Of a stretch of DNA of 47,417 bases, positions 7,352 through 37,220 are shown one piece after another; position 1 is the stretch's first letter, and the number at the start of each line of letters is the position of its first letter. The translations under genes were made by a program, and so were the position numbers. The notes below the pieces were generated by a model. The model saw only the letters and a program-made list of their open reading frames with translations. It was not told the DNA's origin and ran no database searches. Source of the stretch: Clostridiisalibacter paucivorans DSM 22131 (GTDB taxonomy: Bacteria; Bacillota; Clostridia; Tissierellales; Clostridiisalibacteraceae); assembly GCF_000620125.1 (NCBI RefSeq), contig NZ_JHVL01000027.1:1-47417 (forward strand). The letters run 5' to 3'.

Positions 7352-8383
7352 GTGTTAATAGAAGATTTTTTAGTAGAAGCTACACAGTGTCCATCAGTTT
7401 CTGGATATGAATATAATGCTGTGAAAATAATAAAGGATTACTTTAAAACTTATACAGATACTATTACTACAGATAAACTCGGAAATGTAATAGCTCTTAA
7501 AAGAGGCACCACAAGTAATTTCAAAATAATGTTGGCTGCCCATATGGATGAGATAGGACTAATGATTACGGATATTAAAAAAAATGGAAGCATTAAATTT
7601 ACTCAAATTGGAGGTTTTGATCCTAGAACATTAATAAGTCAAAATGTAGTTATACATGGGGCTAAAGATATAACAGGTGTTATTGTTTTATCTGATGAAA
7701 GTAAAACAGAGAAAGTTAAATTGAAGGACCTTCATATTGATACAGGATACACTAAAAAAGAATTAATTACATTAGTCAATGTAGGAGATATAATAACTAT
7801 AGATAGAAAAATGTCTAAACTTGACAACAATATTTTAACAGGTAAATGCCTTGATGATAAAGCAGGCATAGCTGTAATGTTACAATGTGCTAAGGAATTA
7901 TCTAATATGAAACATGATGGAGATATATATTTTGTTTCTACAGTTCAAGAAGAAGTTGGATACAATGGAGCTAAAACTGGAATTTATAGCATAGACCCTG
8001 ATATAGGTATTGCCATTGATGTAGGTTTTGGAAAAACTCCTGAAATACCTGATGATAGAGCTATCCATATGGGTAAAGGTGCCGCCATTACTATGGGAGG
8101 TAATATACACCCTTCATTAAGAAAACATATGACTGAGGTTGCTAAAAAATATAATATACCTCATCAATTTGAAGTATCGCCAGGTGCTACTGGTACTGAC
8201 GCATGGATAATGCAAATATCTAAAGCAGGTATTCCTTGTATTTTATTATCGATACCATTAAGGTATATGCATACATCGGTAGAAACTGTTGACATAAAAG
8301 ACATTTTAAATGCAGGTCAATTATTGGCACAATTTATTATTAATATAACTGATGATTTGTTGGAGGGATTATTATGTTATTAA
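7352..8383 (+). CDS. M42 family aminopeptidase (copy 1)
   Basis: 343 residues. It belongs to the M42 glutamyl-aminopeptidase/TET group (YsdC/FrvX-like), cytoplasmic dinuclear-metal enzymes forming large tetrahedral dodecamers that trim peptides. All ligands and catalytic residues are visible: HMD (H64, D66), DD (D168, D169), EE (E200, E201), D223 and H307 (RYMHT). GTG 7352 follows AAGGAG. Its last 10 bases overlap the start of copy 2, indicating translational coupling. First of three tandem paralogues. Confidence 0.93.
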   Translation: MLIEDFLVEATQCPSVSGYEYNAVKIIKDYFKTYTDTITTDKLGNVIALKRGTTSNFKIMLAAHMDEIGLMITDIKKNGSIKFTQIGGFDPRTLISQNVVIHGAKDITGVIVLSDESKTEKVKLKDLHIDTGYTKKELITLVNVGDIITIDRKMSKLDNNILTGKCLDDKAGIAVMLQCAKELSNMKHDGDIYFVSTVQEEVGYNGAKTGIYSIDPDIGIAIDVGFGKTPEIPDDRAIHMGKGAAITMGGNIHPSLRKHMTEVAKKYNIPHQFEVSPGATGTDAWIMQISKAGIPCILLSIPLRYMHTSVETVDIKDILNAGQLLAQFIINITDDLLEGLLCY

Positions 8384-9384
8384 AAAAACTATCACAGTCC
8401 AGTGGTGTATCAGGCAATGAGGGAGAAATAAGGCAGGTTATTATAGAAGAGATTAGAGAGTATGTTGATAAAATATCTATTGATAAAATAGGTAATATAA
8501 TAGCTTTTAAAAAAGGTACAAATCCATCATGTCGATTAATGCTATCTTCTCATATGGATGAAATAGGACTTATAGTTACTAATATAGATGATTGTGGGTT
8601 AATAAAATTTTCTCCAGTGGGAGATGTTGATAAGAGAACATTATTATCAAAACAAGTTTTTATAGGAAATAATAAAGTTCTCGGAGTTATAGGTGGGAAA
8701 CCTATTCATTTGCAAAAACAGAATGAAAGAGAGAAGTTTTTAGATTTTAAAGATATGTATATAGATATAGGTGCAAAAAGTAAAGATGATGCTGAAAAAT
8801 TAGTATCTATTGGAGATTATATATCATTCAATACAGATTTTTATCTTGTAAATAATACTTTGTTAAAAGGAAAGGCTTTAGACTCTAGGTCAGGATGTAA
8901 TATATTGATTGATTTAACAAAAAATGATTATAAGAATGATATATATTTTGTATTTACTGTAATGAACAAAATTGGTGTTAGAGGAGCTGGCCCAGCAGCT
9001 TTTCAAATAAATCCTGACTTAGCAATTGTTTTAGAAAGCACTGAAACAGATGATATGGTTGAAAACAAAGAACATATACCAAAAATAACTTTGGGGAAAG
9101 GACCAGTATTGGGACTTATGGGAAAAAATATTATTTATAATGAAGAACTAAAAAAGATCATAATAAGAATAAGTAAGAAAAATAACATTGATATTCAATA
9201 TCAAACCGATTCAAAGCATTTAAGTGATGCTTTTGCTATCCAAACTTCAGCAACAGGAATAAAAGTTGCAAGTATATCAGTACCTGTTAGATATATGTAT
9301 TCTTTTAACAAATTAATAAGTAAAAATGATTATGATAATTTTAAAAAACTTTTAGATTTATTTCTAAAGGAATATAATAAATAG
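8374..9384 (+). CDS. M42-like protein with degenerate active site (copy 2)
   Basis: 336 residues, clearly homologous to its neighbours along the whole length and intact as a reading frame, but key residues differ. HMDEIG (H60, D62) is kept, while DD becomes D170-S171, EE becomes N198-K199, the DVG aspartate becomes E221, and the C-terminal histidine of RYMHT becomes tyrosine (Y309). From knowledge of the family, the catalytic glutamate and at least two metal ligands are therefore missing. It is likely a pseudo-enzyme, perhaps a structural or regulatory subunit in a mixed oligomer with copies 1 and 3. The ribosome site GGAGGG lies inside copy 1. Confidence 0.85.
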   Translation: MLLKKLSQSSGVSGNEGEIRQVIIEEIREYVDKISIDKIGNIIAFKKGTNPSCRLMLSSHMDEIGLIVTNIDDCGLIKFSPVGDVDKRTLLSKQVFIGNNKVLGVIGGKPIHLQKQNEREKFLDFKDMYIDIGAKSKDDAEKLVSIGDYISFNTDFYLVNNTLLKGKALDSRSGCNILIDLTKNDYKNDIYFVFTVMNKIGVRGAGPAAFQINPDLAIVLESTETDDMVENKEHIPKITLGKGPVLGLMGKNIIYNEELKKIIIRISKKNNIDIQYQTDSKHLSDAFAIQTSATGIKVASISVPVRYMYSFNKLISKNDYDNFKKLLDLFLKEYNK

Positions 9385-9395
9385 GAGGATAAAAG

Positions 9396-10403
9396 ATGAC
9401 TATAGAAAGCGGTTTATTAAAAAATTTGACTCAAATATTTTCTCCATCTGGATATGAAGATTCTATTAGAGACTTTATAAGGGAAGAAATAAAAGAGTAT
9501 GTAGATGAAATATTTATTGATAAGCTTGGTAACCTAATTGCACGAAAAAAGGGAAATGGTAAAAAAATAATGGTTGCTGCTCATATGGATCAAATAGGTA
9601 TGATGATTACTAATATTGATAATAATGGCTTTTTAAGATTTACTGGAATAGGAGGAGTTTTTCCACATCATGTTATAGGACAAAAAGTAATTTTTGAAAA
9701 TAAAACAGTGGGCATAATTGAAATGGAAGAAAAAATAGAGAATAAGGATAAACTAAAATTAAAAGACCTTTATATAGATATAGGCGCAAAAGATAAATCA
9801 GAAGCTATGAAAACCGTCAATATTGGAGACACATGTGTATTCCATAGTGAATACCACGAAGACGACAATAGAGTGGTAACTAAGGCCCTCGATGACAGAA
9901 TTGGGTGCTATATATTAATAAAAACAATAAAAGATTTAATTGAATCTCCAAATGATATATATTTTACATTTACTGTACAAGAAGAGTTAGGGCTGAGGGG
10001 CGCTAAGACATCAGCATTTTTTATAGAACCTGATTTAGGAATATCTGTAGATATTACAGGTTGTGGAGATACTCCCAATGCTGAACTCTTTGCTGTCAAA
10101 CTTGATGGAGGTACAGCTATTAAAGTAAAAGATAATTATTTAATAACCCATCCAAAAGTTAAAAATTTAATGGTTAATATAGCAAAAGAAAATGAAATTA
10201 AATATCAGATGGAAGTTCTTGAATATGGTGGCACAGATTCTGGTGCTATTCATACATCAAAATCTGGGGTGCCTTCTGGAGTTATTTCTGTACCCACTAG
10301 ATACTCTCATACAGATCATGAGACTGTATTTAAATCAGATGTTAATGCATCATTAAGATTATTAATGGCTATTTTACAGAAAGATGTTTCTCTTTATCTT
10401 TAA
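9396..10403 (+). CDS. M42 family aminopeptidase (copy 3)
   Basis: 335 residues with a full active site: HMDQIG (H63, D65), ALDDR, VQEELG, SVD and RYSHTDHETV. ATG 9396 follows AGGAGG and starts 11 bases after copy 2, so the three genes form one operon. Probably an active metallo-aminopeptidase that trims peptides imported or released by proteolysis, suited to a peptide-fermenting lifestyle (inference). The specificity of M42 enzymes (Glu/Asp, Leu, Lys) cannot be read from the sequence. Confidence 0.92.
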   Translation: MTIESGLLKNLTQIFSPSGYEDSIRDFIREEIKEYVDEIFIDKLGNLIARKKGNGKKIMVAAHMDQIGMMITNIDNNGFLRFTGIGGVFPHHVIGQKVIFENKTVGIIEMEEKIENKDKLKLKDLYIDIGAKDKSEAMKTVNIGDTCVFHSEYHEDDNRVVTKALDDRIGCYILIKTIKDLIESPNDIYFTFTVQEELGLRGAKTSAFFIEPDLGISVDITGCGDTPNAELFAVKLDGGTAIKVKDNYLITHPKVKNLMVNIAKENEIKYQMEVLEYGGTDSGAIHTSKSGVPSGVISVPTRYSHTDHETVFKSDVNASLRLLMAILQKDVSLYL

Positions 10404-30697: not shown

Positions 30698-30726
30698 AAA
30701 ATAGAGAAGTTTAAACTCCTCTATTT
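30698..30726 (-). terminator. Terminator of rny
   Basis: An inverted repeat with one mismatch centred on TTTAAA overlaps the rny stop codon, with seven T downstream on the - strand. Confidence 0.7.
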
Positions 30727-32256
30727 TGCATATTCTACAGCTCTTGTCTCTCTTATAACATTAACTTTTATTTGGCCTGGATATTCTAATTCATTTTCAA
30801 TTCTTTTAACTATATCTCTAGCTATGTGTATTGTATCTAAATCATTAATTTCATCAGATTTCACAATTATTCTTACCTCTCTACCAGCTTGTATAGCATA
30901 TGACTTTTCTACTCCTTCAAAACCGTTAGCTATTTCTTCCAACTTCTCAAGCCTTTTAATATAAGCTTCTAATGTCTCTCTTCTAGCCCCTGGTCTTGCT
31001 GCAGATACAGCATCAGCAGCTTGGACTAATATAGCTTCTATGGTTTCAGGCTCTACATCTCCATGATGAGCAGCAACGGCATGAATAACTTCTTTAGATT
31101 CTCTGAACTTTCTACATAAATCTACTCCAATGTCTACATGAGGACCCTCCACTTCATGATCTACTGCTTTTCCTATATCATGAAGTAAGCCAGCTCTTTT
31201 CGCTATCTTTACATCAGCGCCTAACTCAGCCGCCATTATACCGGCAAGATGAGATACTTCTATGGAATGATTTAATACATTTTGTCCATAGCTAGTTCTA
31301 AATTTAAGTCTTCCCAACAATCTAACCATTTCAGAATGTATACCATGTATACCAGTGTCAAATGTAGCTTGTTCTCCTACTTCTCTGATATGTTCACTTA
31401 CTTCTTTTCTTGCCTTGTCAACCATTTCTTCTATTCTAGCAGGATGTATCCTTCCATCAGAAATAAGCTTTTCCAATGCTATTCTTGCTACTTCTCTTCT
31501 TATTGGATCGAATCCAGATAAAATAACTGCTTCGGGGGTGTCATCTATTATTAAGTCTATACCTGTTAAGGTTTCTAATGTTCTAATATTTCTACCTTCT
31601 CTTCCTATTATCCTACCTTTCATTTCATCATTAGGAAGGGACACTACTGAAACTGTGGTTTCAGCTACATGATCAGCTGCACATTTTTGAATTGCATGAG
31701 ATATAATTTCCCTCGCTCTTTTAGATGCCTCATCCTTAGCTTTATATTCAATTTCTTTAATCATAATTGCAGCTTCGTGGCTTGTTTCTTTTCTGACATC
31801 ATTCAATAATAGTTCCCTTGCTTGATCAGATGTTAAACCAGATAATTTTTCTAATTCTTCTACCTGTTTTTTATACAATTCTTCAATGTCAAGCTCTCTT
31901 TTTTCTATTTCTTTATTCTTTTTGTTTAAAATGTCCTCTTTTTTCTCTAAGGATTCACCTTTTCTATCCAATATTTCTTCTTTATGGACCAATCTTCTTT
32001 CCAACCTTTGAAACTCATTTCTTCTTTCTCTATTTTCCCTCTCCAAATCCGTTCTCATTTTATGAATCTCTTCTTTACCCTCTAGAAGATATTCTTTTTT
32101 TGAAGTTTCTGCTGTCTTTATTCCTTCTTCTATAATTCTTTTTGCTTCTTCCTCTGCTGTTTTTATTTTTGCTTCTGCTATAGTCTTTCTAATATAAATA
32201 CCAGCAAAAATACCAATTGCCAGTCCTAATATACCTGATAATAGATAGTATACGAT
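30721..32256 (-). CDS. rny: Ribonuclease Y, apparent ATC start
   Basis: Membrane-bound endoribonuclease that starts mRNA decay. The first ATG in frame (32058) would remove the anchor, but the frame continues open for 66 codons upstream: a TM helix ([18 protein letters not shown]), then a long charged coiled coil, giving 511 residues, the normal RNase Y length. Next come a KH domain ([15 protein letters not shown]) and an HD domain ([10 protein letters not shown]... LLHDIGKA). A strong AAAGGAGGTG lies 7 bases before ATC 32256, and there is no ATG, GTG or TTG in frame between it and 32058. GTG and TTG in the other frames hit early stops. So an ATC start, or an indel, is implied. Upstream of spoVS on the same strand. 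Confidence 0.9.
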
Positions 32257-32538
32257 GGCAAAGCACCTCCTTTAACAATATTTATTTTCCAAGTTTCAAT
32301 ATCAATTAAGTAGTATTTGCTATTGATTATTAATTAAGACTAATAAATTAATAAAATATAAGTAGAATTAAATCAAAGAAAATCAATACAAACACTATAA
32401 ACATTTAAAAACTGTAAAGACCCCACAACAAAATCCTAATTTCAAATATATCTTATTTAATATAGATTTTGTCAATTCATATTACAAAAATACATTCACA
32501 AAGTTTTTGAATATATTTTGTAGGTGTTATAAAAATAT
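32257..32538. other. Leader/spacer upstream of rny
   Basis: About 280 AT-rich bases. On the - strand TTGACA (plus 32470-32475) is a possible -35 with TATATT 19 bases later, so the rny mRNA could carry a leader of some 180 bases. No reading frame and no known riboswitch seen. Confidence 0.4.
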
Positions 32539-32663: not shown

Positions 32664-33329
32664 TTACTCCTCTATAGGCTCAATATAGCTTATACTCCCC
32701 CTTAGAACCACTCTATAAGATAGTGTAGCTATAGAAGATAAATGATTATCATGAGTAACCATTATAATCTGCCTATCGAACATTTCAGAGACTTCTTTTA
32801 AAAATTCAGCCACATTAAAAATATATTCATTGCTTACATGCTTCGCTGGTTCATCTAGGATCAAAGGGCCTTCTACCTTAGGCATATGCAATTGAAGAAA
32901 TGCGATTCTAAGAGCCAAAGATATTATATCTACTATACCTCCACCTCTAGACTGTTGTGGTTTAGTTTTAATCATTTGATCTTCATACTTAGTTATAACA
33001 TAAAATTCAGCATTAGGTTTACCATAGAGTTCATCTATTTCTATTTTGAACTCTATGTCAGAATTAAAGATATATTGAAGACAATTTGTTACCAAGCCCT
33101 CAATTTGCTTTTTAGCTTGTTCCCTTGCAAACTTAGAAGTTTTCTGTAAAAGTATATTAGTCTTCTCTAGTAAATCTATATTTTCATTTACTGTTTTCAA
33201 TGCATTCTTTTTAAGCCTTATTTCTTCCTGTATCCGTTCTCTTTTACCAGTTTCTCTAATAAAGTGTTCCTTTAAACTAATAATATCTTTATTGAGACCA
33301 TCTATATTATAGTCTTCCGTAATCAACAT
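32664..33329 (-). CDS. Rad50/SbcC-like ATPase, C-terminal half as separate protein
   Basis: 221 residues from ATG 33329, chosen because GAGGTGG lies just before it. A coiled coil covers roughly residues 10-85. The rest is an SMC/Rad50 C-lobe: signature region QQSRGGGIVDII (SRGGG 127-131, unlike the usual SGGE/LSGGQ), Walker B LILDEP (156-161), D-loop AKHVS and switch histidine in VTHD (H193). There is no Walker A, so it cannot be a full ATPase alone; the partner lobe is encoded at 33603-35027. It starts 7 bases after the small coiled-coil gene. Probably forms a composite ATP site with the partner. Confidence 0.8.
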   Translation of the reverse strand: MLITEDYNIDGLNKDIISLKEHFIRETGKRERIQEEIRLKKNALKTVNENIDLLEKTNILLQKTSKFAREQAKKQIEGLVTNCLQYIFNSDIEFKIEIDELYGKPNAEFYVITKYEDQMIKTKPQQSRGGGIVDIISLALRIAFLQLHMPKVEGPLILDEPAKHVSNEYIFNVAEFLKEVSEMFDRQIIMVTHDNHLSSIATLSYRVVLRGSISYIEPIEE

Positions 33330-33336
33330 ATCCACC

Positions 33337-33588
33337 TCAATCATTCTTTAATATATCTGTAGGTAATAACTCTGTTGCTTTTTTAAAAAGTTTTTCTATT
33401 TCTTTTTCAAGCTTTTCTATTTCTTCATCTAAATCATCAGGACTAACACCCAAATCATTAAGTTCATCAATTATATCCTGTTGTTGTCGATTTAACTGTT
33501 CTAGACGAGCTTCCGCCTTATATTTTAAAGTTTTTGCTTTTTCTAAATTATTTTTAAGCTCTGATAAATGTTTTTCATGATTAGTCAT
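33337..33588 (-). CDS. Small coiled-coil protein in split-Rad50 cassette
   Basis: 83 residues, almost all heptad-like and highly charged (LKNNLEKAK, RLEQLNRQQQDIIDELNDLG, DDLDEEIEKLEKEIEKLFKKA). No cysteine, no catalytic motif. ATG 33588 is used because GGGAGGT precedes it; an earlier ATG overlaps that site and the preceding stop. Tightly packed between the two ATPase halves, so it may supply a piece of the coiled-coil arm or cap the complex. I do not recognise a family. Confidence 0.7.
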   Translation of the reverse strand: MTNHEKHLSELKNNLEKAKTLKYKAEARLEQLNRQQQDIIDELNDLGVSPDDLDEEIEKLEKEIEKLFKKATELLPTDILKND

Positions 33589-33602
33589 TCTCAAACCTCC
33601 CA

Positions 33603-35027
33603 TTATTTAAGATTATTTAAAATTCTATTTATATCTTCTTTATTTATTGAATTAAAGCATAGAGGACATACTTTCATATCTTTCATTAACTTACTATAAT
33701 TATTTAGCAATGACTCTATATCATTTTTTAAAGTTTTTAGCTTTTCTTCATTTTTATGAATATTATCTGAAATAACTTTATAATTTTGTCTTGTTTTTAT
33801 ATATCTACTCATCAAATTAATATTTTTATAAATTTTTTCTACTATATTATCAACAATATATATATTATCAAACTTCTTAATATAATTATGACCCTTATCT
33901 ATATTATTCTTTATCAATTTAAATTTAGCATCTACTTCCTTAAACTCTTTGTACTTGAGTATATATCTATGCAGTGTTTCTGAATCTTTATATAATTTAT
34001 CTATATGTTTCAGTTTATCTAAATAAGATCTATTTCTATTTATCAATTGTACATTCTCTTTATATTTATTATTTAAACTAATAATAAAATCTTGTTTTTT
34101 GATCAATTTATTCAATATATCGATTGAATTATCTATTTCATATATTTTTGATAAGGCATTGTTTTGACAAACCATTTTTTTGATTTCAGTTTCAGTTTTT
34201 GTAAAAGTTTTTTTCTTTGACAGTAAAGATTTATACCTTGGTATAATTACTTCTATTTCATTTAGTGCACTTGCTAAATAGTCTATATCCTTTAATTTTT
34301 TGAGCATAACATATGTATTATTGATTTCTGACTTTACTAAATCATGCTTTCCCTTTAATTCTCTGATTTTTTTTAATTTATATTTTTTTTCAATTATTAA
34401 ATCCCGTGTTTTTTCTAATTTTGATATTTTATATTTTAATTCATCTAAATATTCATAACTTTTTAAAGTATCTTCTAAATCGTCTAGTTCTTTTTCCGAT
34501 TTTTTCTTATCCATATTTAAATTTCTATAGTCTCTCAACGTATCTTTTACAGCCTTGTCTACAATATGAACATCTACTAATCTACCTATAGCTTTTGCAC
34601 GAGTGGCTGGCTTTTCCGATAATAAAAAAGGACCTTCTAATTGTTCTCCAACATTTATAGAAGTAGAATGTTTACCATCTAAAAATAATTTTCTAATATT
34701 TAACTTTTCAATTATCTCTAAAGGTACTGAAGTGCCAAACCCCTCATAAATTTCTTCATTATACATATAAATATTCTTACTAGCACTTCTAAGTCGCTGA
34801 ATCTTTACACCATTACTAAAATATATGGTTACACTACATTCTTTTTCTCCCTCTCTAATAAAAAAAGTCCCTGCAGGTTCATTGTATAAAACCCATTTTA
34901 TACCTCGTATAATAGCAGTCTTTCCATGATCAGAGGGTCCAACTATCACATTTAAACCATTTTCAAAATCTATTTCTGTATATTTATGGGATTGGAAATT
35001 TTCAAGAATCACCTTAGTTATATACAT
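33603..35027 (-). CDS. Rad50/SbcC-like ATPase, N-terminal half with zinc-hook CxxC
   Basis: 474 residues. The N-lobe begins ITKVILENFQSHKYTEIDF with Walker A GPSDHGKT (30-37), typical of Rad50/SbcC/RecF. Coiled coil extends from about 165 to 450, then CPLC (C454-C457), a zinc-hook-like pair, only 17 residues before the end. Signature, Walker B and the returning coil are missing and appear in separate downstream genes. A natural split, not a frameshift: each part has its own ribosome site and stop. It begins two bases after the Mre11-like gene. Confidence 0.82.
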   Translation of the reverse strand: MYITKVILENFQSHKYTEIDFENGLNVIVGPSDHGKTAIIRGIKWVLYNEPAGTFFIREGEKECSVTIYFSNGVKIQRLRSASKNIYMYNEEIYEGFGTSVPLEIIEKLNIRKLFLDGKHSTSINVGEQLEGPFLLSEKPATRAKAIGRLVDVHIVDKAVKDTLRDYRNLNMDKKKSEKELDDLEDTLKSYEYLDELKYKISKLEKTRDLIIEKKYKLKKIRELKGKHDLVKSEINNTYVMLKKLKDIDYLASALNEIEVIIPRYKSLLSKKKTFTKTETEIKKMVCQNNALSKIYEIDNSIDILNKLIKKQDFIISLNNKYKENVQLINRNRSYLDKLKHIDKLYKDSETLHRYILKYKEFKEVDAKFKLIKNNIDKGHNYIKKFDNIYIVDNIVEKIYKNINLMSRYIKTRQNYKVISDNIHKNEEKLKTLKNDIESLLNNYSKLMKDMKVCPLCFNSINKEDINRILNNLK

Positions 35028-35029
35028 CT

Positions 35030-36010
35030 TTAATCATCATCTCCTGTATATGCGATTTGAGCCTGTTCTATACGGGATATGGCTTCTTTTTTTACTTTTT
35101 CCTCCACATTTTCTGCCATTAATAAATTATCTAAAATATGGTTTATCCCTAATTTTTCAAAGTCACCAGCTGAATCTACAGATTGTTTAAATTGAATCAA
35201 TTTTTCACTTCTATAAATAGATAAGTCTAACTGTTCTCTATCAAGCACTTCTTCTCCAGGTAATATGTTCTTTAGTGGTATTAATTTAATATCTATTTGT
35301 TTCTCCAATGTAATTAAAACAACCTTTGGTACCCTATTGATCTCTTTTATACTATTTGTTATCCTTATTAGACTTCCAGGATTAACAAAATACTTATTTT
35401 CCAATGTTTTTATTCCAAACCCAGAATGATAATGACCTGATAATGTTATATCGGCTAATGTATCTTTTAAATCATCTATTAAAGAATAAGGAATTCCCTT
35501 TATAAAAGGTCTATCCAAAAGCATACCATGTACCATATGGATTGAGTAATCAATATCTCTGTCTTTATCTGTAACTATATAACCCTTTTTATTATTTCCA
35601 TCGATATCATATCTATAAGGCTGCCCTGTAAGCTGAAGTTTAACATCTTTATTAATTATTATTTTCTCATTTTCTTTTATCAGTCTTATGAGTCCCATGG
35701 CATCAAATATACCCAACATAGTTCTATATATGGTTTTAGGATTATGACCATATATATCATGATTCCCTGCGATAGCTAAAATAGGTGCTCTGAATTTATT
35801 TAGAATCAAGGCAAATCTTCTTACTATTGCTGGCGATACATCAGGTCTATCAAATAAATCTCCCCCATGAAGCACATAATCAACGTTTAAATTATTGGCT
35901 ATATTTACAATCTCATTAAATTTAGTTTCTAAAGTCTCTACAATATTATCTTTTCTATTTTTAGGAGAAGTTCCTCTGATGTGAGTATCAGTAAAAAAAA
36001 GTAATTTCAA
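35030..36010 (-). CDS. Mre11/SbcD-like metallophosphoesterase
   Basis: 326 residues. It carries all calcineurin-type motifs: FTDTHIRG (D8, H10), GGDLFDR, GNHD, VHGM and SGHYH, plus a C-terminal extension that may be the ATPase-binding region. Mre11/SbcD nucleases cut DNA ends and hairpins with Rad50/SbcC. TTG 36010 follows GGGAGTG. It is the first gene of the four-gene cassette; the recA terminator lies 54 bases upstream, so expression may come from recA read-through or a nearby promoter not identified. Confidence 0.85.
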   Translation of the reverse strand: MKLLFFTDTHIRGTSPKNRKDNIVETLETKFNEIVNIANNLNVDYVLHGGDLFDRPDVSPAIVRRFALILNKFRAPILAIAGNHDIYGHNPKTIYRTMLGIFDAMGLIRLIKENEKIIINKDVKLQLTGQPYRYDIDGNNKKGYIVTDKDRDIDYSIHMVHGMLLDRPFIKGIPYSLIDDLKDTLADITLSGHYHSGFGIKTLENKYFVNPGSLIRITNSIKEINRVPKVVLITLEKQIDIKLIPLKNILPGEEVLDREQLDLSIYRSEKLIQFKQSVDSAGDFEKLGINHILDNLLMAENVEEKVKKEAISRIEQAQIAYTGDDD

Positions 36011-36063: not shown

Positions 36064-36103
36064 AAAAGATTAAAAACTTCCCTCGGGAAGTTTTTAATCT
36101 TTT
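36064..36103 (-). terminator. Terminator overlapping the recA stop
   Basis: A 19-bp stem (36064-36082 with 36085-36103) includes recA's last codons and stop. The - strand side has AAAAGATTAAAAACTTCCC before GA and a T-rich 3' arm. Closely spaced to the Mre11-like gene. Confidence 0.8.
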
Positions 36104-37131
36104 ATTTTAGCTTTACTCTCATCTTTTTTATTTTCATCTTTCTCTTCAATTAAACCATATTTTTCTCTTACCTTTGTTTCTATTTCATTTGCTACTTCAG
36201 GATTTTTAACTAAATAATCTTTAGAATTTTCTCGTCCTTGTCCTAGCTTTATATCTCCATAGCTATACCAAGAGCCTGCCTTAGTTACTATATCTGCCTT
36301 TACACCTACATCCAATATATTACCCTCTTTAGAAATACCTACACCATACATTATATCAAACTCTGCTTTCTTAAATGGTGGGGCAACTTTGTTCTTAACT
36401 ACTTTTACTCTAGTCCTATTACCTATTATATCATCACCTTGTTTTAGGCTTTCAATTCTTCGTACATCTAATCTAACAGATGAGTAAAACTTTAAAGCTC
36501 TTCCTCCAGGAGTTGTTTCAGGATTTCCAAACATAACTCCTACTTTTTCTCTCAACTGATTTATGAAAATAGATGTAGTATTAGACTTCTTAATAGCCCC
36601 AGCTAATTTTCTTAGGGCTTGAGACATAAGCCTTGCTTGTAACCCTACATGACTATCTCCCATTTCTCCTTCAATTTCTGCCTTAGGAACTAAAGCAGCT
36701 ACAGAGTCTACAACAATAACATCAAGCGCTCCACTTCTAACCAAAGCCTCTGCTATCTCTAAAGCTTGTTCTCCAGTATCTGGCTGTGAAATAATCAAAT
36801 TTTCTATATCTACTCCTAATTTTTTTGCATATCCTGGATCCAGTGCATGCTCTGCATCAATAAATGCAGCATCCCCACCGTTCTTTTGGGCCTCTGCTAT
36901 CATATGAAGTGCAACTGTTGTCTTACCTGATGACTCGGGCCCATATATCTCTACTATCCTTCCTCGTGGAACTCCTCCAATTCCTAGAGCAATATCAAGA
37001 TCTAAGGCTCCAGTTGAGATTGATTCTATATTTAATTTAGAATCTGCACCTAATTTCATTACAGAGCCCTTACCAAATTGTTTTTCAATTTGATTCAAGG
37101 CCATTTCTAAAGCTTTTTTCTTTTCCATCAT
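36094..37131 (-). CDS. recA: Recombinase RecA
   Basis: 345 residues from ATG 37131 (or 344 from the next ATG). [24 protein letters not shown] is the usual N-terminus. Walker [22 protein letters not shown] and the DNA-binding-loop segment [17 protein letters not shown] are all present, and an acidic/Lys-rich tail ends it. An open frame extends 23 codons further up to 37200, but this runs through the LexA operator and the promoter, so it is not translated. It drives strand exchange and LexA self-cleavage. Confidence 0.97.
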
Positions 37132-37169
37132 ATTATTCCCAGAAAATCTGGTACACCACCTTTCCATTT

Positions 37170-37220
37170 CGAACAAATGTTCTATATGGTTATTATACAT
37201 GATTTGGTATAAAAGGTCAA
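37170..37220 (-). promoter_or_regulatory. recA SOS promoter and LexA operator
   Basis: On the - strand TTGACC (37215-37220), 17 bases, TATAAT (37192-37197), followed by operator AGAACATTTGTTCG (37170-37183), a LexA box at about the transcript start. It fixes recA's true start downstream. Confidence 0.85.

Follow-up and report, generated by a model that had tools for sequence, protein, structure and literature searches.

The window studied here is the whole 47,417-nucleotide stretch of Clostridiisalibacter paucivorans DSM 22131 (contig NZ_JHVL01000027.1, positions 1 to 47,417), and it carries, between recA and rny, four tightly spaced genes on the minus strand (36010-32664). They very probably encode a housekeeping end-processing complex of the Mre11-Rad50 (SbcDC) type, in which Rad50 is split between two genes and which displaces SbcCD in this lineage and most likely works with HerA-NurA. 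We call the genes mre11, radN (Rad50 N half), cc (for coiled coil) and radC (Rad50 C half). They and their main elements are as follows.

35030 to 36010, minus strand: mre11, an mre11/sbcD-like nuclease gene of 326 amino acids (aa) with a TTG start (PF00149 at 2e-15).
33603 to 35027, minus strand: radN, 474 aa, with the N-lobe, a long arm and a C-terminal putative zinc-hook motif (PF13476 at 4e-14).
34917 to 34940, minus strand: Walker A motif GPSDHGKT, radN residues 30-37 (G30, G35 and K36 invariant in 37 and 43 sequences).
33735 to 34439, minus strand: five 47-residue arm repeat units, radN residues 197-431 (found by autocorrelation with a shuffle control).
33657 to 33668, minus strand: putative zinc hook, a CPLC motif at radN residues 454-457 that lies 17 residues from the C terminus (C454, P455 and C457 invariant in 37 sequences).
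33337 to 33588, minus strand: cc, a two-helix coiled-coil protein of 83 aa (phrog_18563 at 1.9e-10).
32664 to 33329, minus strand: radC, matching the Rad50 chain 3qkr_B by profile at 2.3e-17.
32934 to 32948, minus strand: divergent ATP-binding cassette (ABC) signature RGGGI in place of LSGGE, radC residues 133-137 in the numbering from 33344 (G134, G135 and G136 invariant in 42 sequences).
32832 to 32864, minus strand: Walker B and D-loop LILDEPAKHVS, with the D-loop aspartate changed to serine (D164, E165 and S171 invariant in 42 sequences).

The Mre11-like protein keeps D8, H10, D51, N83, H84, H161, H193 and H195 invariant in 29 aligned sequences; we take these to be the metal ligands, of which the full set is thus present. 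The nearest Rad50 structures to radN by profile are 5f3w (2e-16) and 3aux (5e-16), and its predicted N-lobe matches the heads of structural maintenance of chromosomes (SMC) proteins, Rad50 and RecF at Z 11-15, inseparable from one another. Q129, presumably the Q-loop, is invariant in the alignment of N halves. All 37 aligned N halves carry a CPxC motif, probably the hook, and the end of radN matches the Rad50 chains 6zff and 1l8d, which we assume to be hook structures. The predicted model of radC (predicted local distance difference test 94) opens with a helix of ~80 residues and matches 1f2u_B, presumably the ATP-bound C-lobe of P. furiosus Rad50, at Z 15.5 with a root-mean-square deviation of 2.3 over 143 residues. 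The protein is below Pfam cut-offs, and it also has the H-switch motif VTHD. In PHROGs, radN matches phrog_16465 at 2.6e-74 and radC matches phrog_15167 at 2.3e-60. The best NCBIfam models for both halves are Rad50 models, archaeal ones as we assume partly from their names, at 1.7e-19 for the N half and 4.5e-9 for the C half, far below the cut-offs. The initial annotation of the window had described a four-gene Mre11/Rad50-type system with Walker A, CPLC, SRGGG and Walker B; all of these are present and conserved, and the profile searches it proposed place both halves nearest to Rad50.

The signature of radC is divergent. An arginine precedes GGG in 98 of 157 non-redundant C halves and RGGG[VI] occurs in 95, with a pattern that took the first match per sequence and failed on at least 4 of the 157. 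A minority of C halves, phage forms, are SGGG-like and keep a serine beside the glycines. The profile alignment places the canonical signature serine over the first glycine of RGGG (GGG over SGG), while the SGGG phage forms would align the arginine with that serine instead; we keep both alignments.

The division of Rad50 is not an accident of sequencing. Sequences resembling ribosome-binding sites precede each gene (AGGGAG before mre11, AGGAG before radN, GGGAGGT before the cc ATG at 33588 and GAGGTGG before the radC ATG at 33329). The upstream radC ATG at 33344 has no such sequence, so 33329 is the likelier start. All four proteins align with relatives along their full length, which rules out chance or a sequencing artefact as their source. 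A frameshift or assembly artefact, considered as a candidate, was rejected on the separate ribosome sites, the presence of the module in many genomes and the different loci of the two halves in five genomes of one family, as the initial annotation had concluded from the ribosome sites. Among the order-sample C-half matches (see below), 63 of 66 have no inner stop and three have inner stops in the search reading (G075, G091, G107); elsewhere, a few individual N halves (L100, L308) are interrupted.

The same annotation had Rad50 split in three. Two halves are confirmed, and the third piece is better put as an accessory two-helix protein than as part of Rad50. P50 of cc is invariant in 31 sequences, and of the 129 viral loci whose C half is free-standing, 127 have a cc-profile match in the locus or, no more than 330 bp upstream of the C half, the end of a small charged open reading frame (ORF).

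We followed the system through three samples: 120 genomes of the source organism's order, with the split system scored by the C half at E <= 1e-15, 291 genomes of the class and 398 of the phylum (Bacillota). SbcC was scored by PF13558 (SbcC_Walker_B) over the family cut-off and NurA by PF09376. The split system is present in 66 of the 120 order-sample genomes and SbcC in 41, and the two nearly exclude each other: SbcC occurs in 1 of the 66 genomes with the split system (G060) versus 40 of the 54 without it (Fisher p 1e-18). Two of the 41 SbcC genomes match solely through a protein of ~1370-1400 aa of another type, and without these the figures are 1/66 and 38/54; 14 of the 120 genomes have neither system. 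The swap takes place inside families: family f8 combines one genome that has the split system and three that have SbcC, and family f4 includes fifteen split genomes (one also with SbcC), three that have SbcC alone and two in which neither occurs. In the class sample the split system is found in 21 genomes and PF13558 passes its cut-off in 135 (Fisher p 4e-4); two of the 21 are over the cut-off (G060, and G203 through a ~1397-aa protein of another type), and four more at E 1e-4 to 7e-4 were taken as below it. The phylum sample contains 65 genomes with the split system. A search of the source genome for SbcC gave no PF13558 match and no TIGR00618 match over the cut-off. Only 1 of 14 control genomes passed with TIGR00618, which is therefore a weak test of SbcC absence, PF13558 being the better one.

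NurA goes with the split system. It was detected in 67 of the 120 order-sample genomes, namely all 66 with the split system versus 1 of the 54 without it (p 1e-33). Within the phylum sample NurA is over the cut-off in 71 genomes, 53 of which also have the split system (p 2e-38), that is, in 53 of 65 split genomes versus 18 of 333 others. We read 66 neighbourhoods, namely L087, L091 and 64 stretches that surround matches of the phylum sample (from 61 genomes, of which three have a second copy); G000, G003, G004 and G477 were not re-read in this set. In 31 of them (29 without L087 and L091) nurA and herA lie with the module, mostly in the order nurA-herA-mre11-radN-cc-radC. The others adjoin recA and/or rny (21), belong to a fusion family (3) or have other contexts (11), some of which end at contig edges or resemble phage regions. 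The source genome has nurA and herA side by side on a different contig from the module (L339). In addition to its ordinary copy, the genome G043 has another, divergent split cluster (L091), which includes nurA, a gene that matches DUF1173 below the threshold, and herA.

The neighbours in the window are the following.

36094 to 37200, minus strand: recA, the upstream neighbour, also conserved beside the module in L006-L010 and L012.
30721 to 32058, minus strand: rny (RNase Y), the downstream neighbour, which lies ~500 bp or less downstream of radC in 28 of 30 own-order loci.

These own-order loci (L013-L042, source genome included) have radN, cc and radC consecutive in 29 of 30, the exceptions here and for rny stopping at contig edges. 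The link to recA that the initial annotation had proposed holds as synteny in many lineages, but the functionally telling partner is NurA-HerA.

A number of observations weigh against a housekeeping complex that displaced SbcCD. The genomes in the co-occurrence samples are phylogenetically non-independent, and PF13558 missed 2 of 14 and 3 of 14 control genomes in two runs, so some SbcC may have been overlooked. At phylum level 12 of the 65 split genomes have no PF09376 match, although three of these are the fusion family, several resemble phage contexts or cut contigs and one (G724) has nurA by a custom profile (L326); conversely, 18 of the 71 NurA genomes have no split system. The initial annotation had considered that a full-length SbcC/SbcD pair might be the true partner of the nuclease. 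No SbcC over the cut-off exists in the source genome, but a separate pair does (L243:4297-7625, 746 aa and 363 aa, beside another small phosphoesterase), which we take to be of the YhaN/YhaO type, as does a divergent AddAB-like pair (L340:1728-8217) with an AddB-like protein of 1056 aa, recognized by eye, and an AddA-like protein of 1116 aa. End processing may therefore be shared. The AddA-like protein scores 291 bits, below the curated cut-off. The canonical AddA model is over its cut-off in 4 of the 66 split versus 43 of the 54 other order-sample genomes. Below the cut-off, however, a match is present in 46 of the 66, usually in an ORF of ~1100 aa, and for this reason we do not claim a loss of AddAB. 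The host forms of radC replace both the signature serine and the D-loop aspartate of canonical Rad50, and the ATPase cycle may differ as a result. Lastly, the PADLOC profile for LmuB (PDLC03859) matches residues 1-451 of the N half at 1e-12 and, with its C-terminal part, residues 12-204 of the C half at 9.3e-7, the LmuB values for the C half ranging from 2.8e-7 to 9.3e-7.

These last matches, with those of the AriA and GajA profiles to the N half, would fit an anti-phage or anti-plasmid defence module assembled from Rad50-like parts, for instance a relative of Lamassu, and HerA is known from defence contexts too. In Lamassu the effector LmuA lies in the same operon; no LmuA appears among the best 25 PADLOC matches listed for the four proteins, the wider neighbourhood not having been scanned with PADLOC. 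We consider a defence module most unlikely. Rad50 models fit both halves better than LmuB does (the NCBIfam values above), and the module has no effector among its four genes, one of which encodes an Mre11-type nuclease. The module adjoins recA and rny or nurA-herA in many families, it nearly excludes SbcC, and phages themselves carry it.

The initial annotation had suspected that split forms may occur in phages and related Firmicutes, and the survey bears this out: the pair of halves recurs across Bacillota and in phages. Viral contig scans gave 67 loci with C-half relatives and, for N-half relatives, 80 stretches kept of 459. Of 147 viral loci read, 146 have a match of any kind. The C half is free-standing in 129 of these, of which 127 also have an N half and 119 an N half together with mre11. 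Single contigs recur among the loci, and the distinct C-half ORFs number 100. Bacillus phage vB_BboS-125 has the complete four-gene set, and its annotation lists no feature over mre11; an AP2-domain gene, perhaps a homing gene, lies between its N half and small protein (L003:9410-9982). In Microbacterium phage Magritte the halves are separated by ~93 kb on the linear record, and by 39 kb on the assumption that its ends join. A search of plasmids gave 11 distant N-half matches. A quick, unrooted tree of C halves (137 rows, the careful search being unfinished) gathers most cellular rows in one supported group of 62, which includes 8 phage rows and in which recA-linked and nurA-linked forms are mixed. 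This grouping, together with the 100 distinct viral C-half ORFs, would fit a phage recombination module that was domesticated once and persisted in the hosts as a relic with little function. We regard this reading as very unlikely: the active-site residues are conserved, nearly all order-sample C-half matches are free of inner stops and the pairing with NurA is complete in the order sample. A phage origin and a present function are compatible.

The halves are not always neighbours. In five genomes of one family (f70) mre11-radN-cc is found elsewhere and radC is still beside rny, at a distance of 1.1 Mb in G333 and 0.33 Mb in G386 and on other contigs in the remaining three. Such distances could mean that each half has a partner of its own and that the two share no head, which we find very unlikely, since each half is without motifs needed for an ABC head, an N half was found in all 35 C-half genomes searched for one, and fusions join the halves with Mre11. 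These fusions come from one family (f138), in which all three genomes found (G440, G688, G749) have Mre11, N-lobe and C-lobe in one ORF of 684-700 aa with no CxxC; such a hookless fusion is a natural minimal Mre11-Rad50. The three fusion genes (L274, L275, L276; ~690 aa) adjoin a gene with an AddB-like look. Three phage contigs (L096, L106, L109) have Mre11 and the N half in one ORF and the C half separate. The motif sets of the two halves are thus complementary and the fusions join them, which argues for one composite head made from both.

The arm of radN is the most unusual feature of the system. In the alignment of 37 N halves the hydrophobicity of the arm (residues 161-450) has an autocorrelation of 0.705 at lag 47, 0.627 at lag 94 and 0.592 at lag 141, and block shuffles never exceeded 0.45 at any lag from 30 to 99 in 2000 trials. 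In single N-half sequences 47 is the best lag within 25-80 in 103 of 181, distributed from the shortest to the longest arm class as 49/94, 7/21, 33/49 and 14/17. SbcC arms of the same order differ: in 20 proteins, examined as 40 arm segments, 47 does not rank among the six most frequent best lags, and five aligned reference SbcC proteins have leading autocorrelations of 0.22-0.36, frequently but not only at lag 21. In single SbcC arms isolated values of 0.199 (lag 48) and 0.268 (lag 49) occur, which shows that chance can give weak signals close to 47.

Arm length also varies in steps. Among 184 non-redundant N halves the distance from D157 to the hook clusters at 147, 194, 250, 297 (the class of the source radN) and 344 residues, with gaps of 47, 56, 47 and 47. 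The best single period of these lengths is 50.5 (R 0.908 versus at most 0.254 in 2000 smoothed resamples) rather than 47, because one gap is 56. The distance between Walker A and D157, a second landmark, is scattered, and D157 may for this reason be off in the short phage class. In 167 N halves with a C half at the locus, the C-half median stays at 217-219.5 residues in all five arm classes and 162 of the C halves measure 200-245 residues, with only a weak rise with arm length (Spearman 0.21, p 0.006). The arm of 297 residues and the C-half helix of ~80, encoded in two genes, are unequal. Since the arm changes its length stepwise and the C half hardly does, the arm cannot form the canonical antiparallel Rad50 coil. 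The inequality and the lack of a normal antiparallel arm had both been anticipated in the initial annotation, with lengths of ~285 and ~75 residues that we revise to ~298 and ~80.

The fold of the arm is less clear. AlphaFold2 predicts near-continuous helices over residues 154-451 (~298 residues) with breaks near 191, 294, 339-347 and 388. A folded helical-hairpin arm had been considered on account of the 47-residue repeat, and AlphaFold2 gave long helices, at a predicted template modelling score of only 0.31. For a uniform two-strand coil the hydrophobic period would have to be 47/14 = 3.36 residues, and 10 of 12 windows gave 3.34-3.42. This is tighter than the heptad value of 3.5, so a plain coiled coil seems doubtful too. 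Length modes ~100 residues apart and periodic length constraints have been described for SMC proteins, and Burmann et al. 2017 considered it unclear whether periodic elements in the Rad50 arm are critical (PMC5344682, from the part of the article available).

We propose that the N half would supply the Walker A/Q-loop lobe, the long arm and the zinc hook, and the C half the lobe with signature, Walker B, D-loop and H-switch. The coil root where Mre11 would bind probably forms by pairing of the ~80-residue helix of the C half with the N-arm base. Two composite heads could then sandwich ATP on an Mre11 dimer, with the two N arms joined at their CPxC hooks, and the small two-helix protein (~83 aa) probably caps or braces the arm, replacing the missing return strand. 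Access of Mre11 to DNA ends and hairpins would be gated by ATP-driven engagement, and the complex most likely feeds ends to HerA-NurA for resection ahead of RecA loading. The composite head is argued from motif complementarity and the fusions, and the other steps are inferred from what is known of Mre11-Rad50 and HerA-NurA.

A bolder reading, which we hold as evenly balanced between acceptance and doubt, is that Bacillota and their phages have a major undescribed branch of Mre11-Rad50 with a two-chain Rad50 that has abandoned the return arm for a rod of 47-residue units, which grows or shrinks by whole units, and that with HerA-NurA it is the main end-resection machine of these bacteria, replacing SbcCD and partly canonical AddAB. 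Mre11-Rad50 is a universal machine of DNA break repair, and how hook and head signal to each other through the arms is an open question. If the rod reading were true, force or spacing between hook and head would be carried by the N chain alone, possibly by a parallel pair of N arms. An arm with discrete lengths and a strict 47-residue repeat makes the question of periodicity testable by adding or removing units. The system would also give bacteria a HerA-NurA-Mre11-Rad50 set in place of SbcCD, and many phage genes labelled exonuclease, ATPase or hypothetical a likely function.

Two further observations concern the rest of the window. The first standard start of rny gives an RNase Y of 445 aa, and an N-terminal membrane-like segment is open in frame upstream (32058-32260, minus strand) behind a GGAGGTG site, with no in-frame ATG, GTG or TTG and with ATC at that place. 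Of three loci compared, L006 and L010 have the same segment upstream of the first standard rny start and L012 has a normal ATG; a non-canonical start codon for rny in the source genome is possible. At 7352-10403 there are three tandem genes that by their look resemble related metallopeptidases of ~335-343 aa each.

Compared with known systems, the split complex belongs to the same Mre11/Rad50 superfamily as SbcC-SbcD and probably took over its role. SbcC is one chain of 913-1181 aa (20 own-order proteins) with CxxC near the middle in the five examined. Canonical Rad50 and SbcC have an LSGGE-like signature serine and equal arms in one chain, neither of which is found in the split system of the source genome. 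The YhaN/YhaO-type pair of the same genome likewise combines an Mre11-like and an SMC-like protein but differs by its single-chain ATPase of 746 aa. Phages such as vB_BboS-125 have the same three proteins (phrog_16465, phrog_18563, phrog_15167) in the same order with mre11 nearby, annotated in PHROGs merely as exonuclease, unknown and ATPase, and in one phage record as a chromosome segregation protein. Yoshida et al. 2011 described a fusion of Mre11 and Rad50 in Bacillus phage 0305phi8-36 (A7KV18) without one P-loop NTPase segment (PMC3175470), as expected if the C half is separate; a separate C half is not described in the part of that article available. Among viral structures it is this protein that the N half matches best. 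A close search with L106 in the phage collection gave no match, so we do not equate L106 with 0305phi8-36. Our host fusions (L274-L276) differ from those of Yoshida et al. by lacking the hook and most of the arm. The available parts of two other articles (PMC5105663, PMC7824862) report phage SbcC and SbcD genes and no split SbcC. Our literature searches, with most subscription journals and all of bioRxiv outside their coverage, returned no description of a split or bipartite Rad50 or SbcC, nor of one with HerA-NurA in Bacillota; as far as these searches show, split Mre11-Rad50 is widespread and undescribed as such.

The HerA-NurA resection pair is best known from archaea. Archaeal Rad50 gives the best structure matches to both halves, the archaeal source of those structures being our assumption, partly from the species in their titles. 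The accessible text of PMC2288612 reports that archaeal HerA-NurA is linked to the Mre11-Rad50 genes. The archaeal clusters have the form herA-mre11-rad50-nurA. By homology the split system has the same four activities as the archaeal set, and its six-gene operon mirrors the archaeal linkage. The differences are that it is bacterial, that its Rad50 lies in two genes with an added two-helix protein, and that it has an RGGG[IV] signature, a serine in the D-loop and an arm built on a 47-residue repeat.

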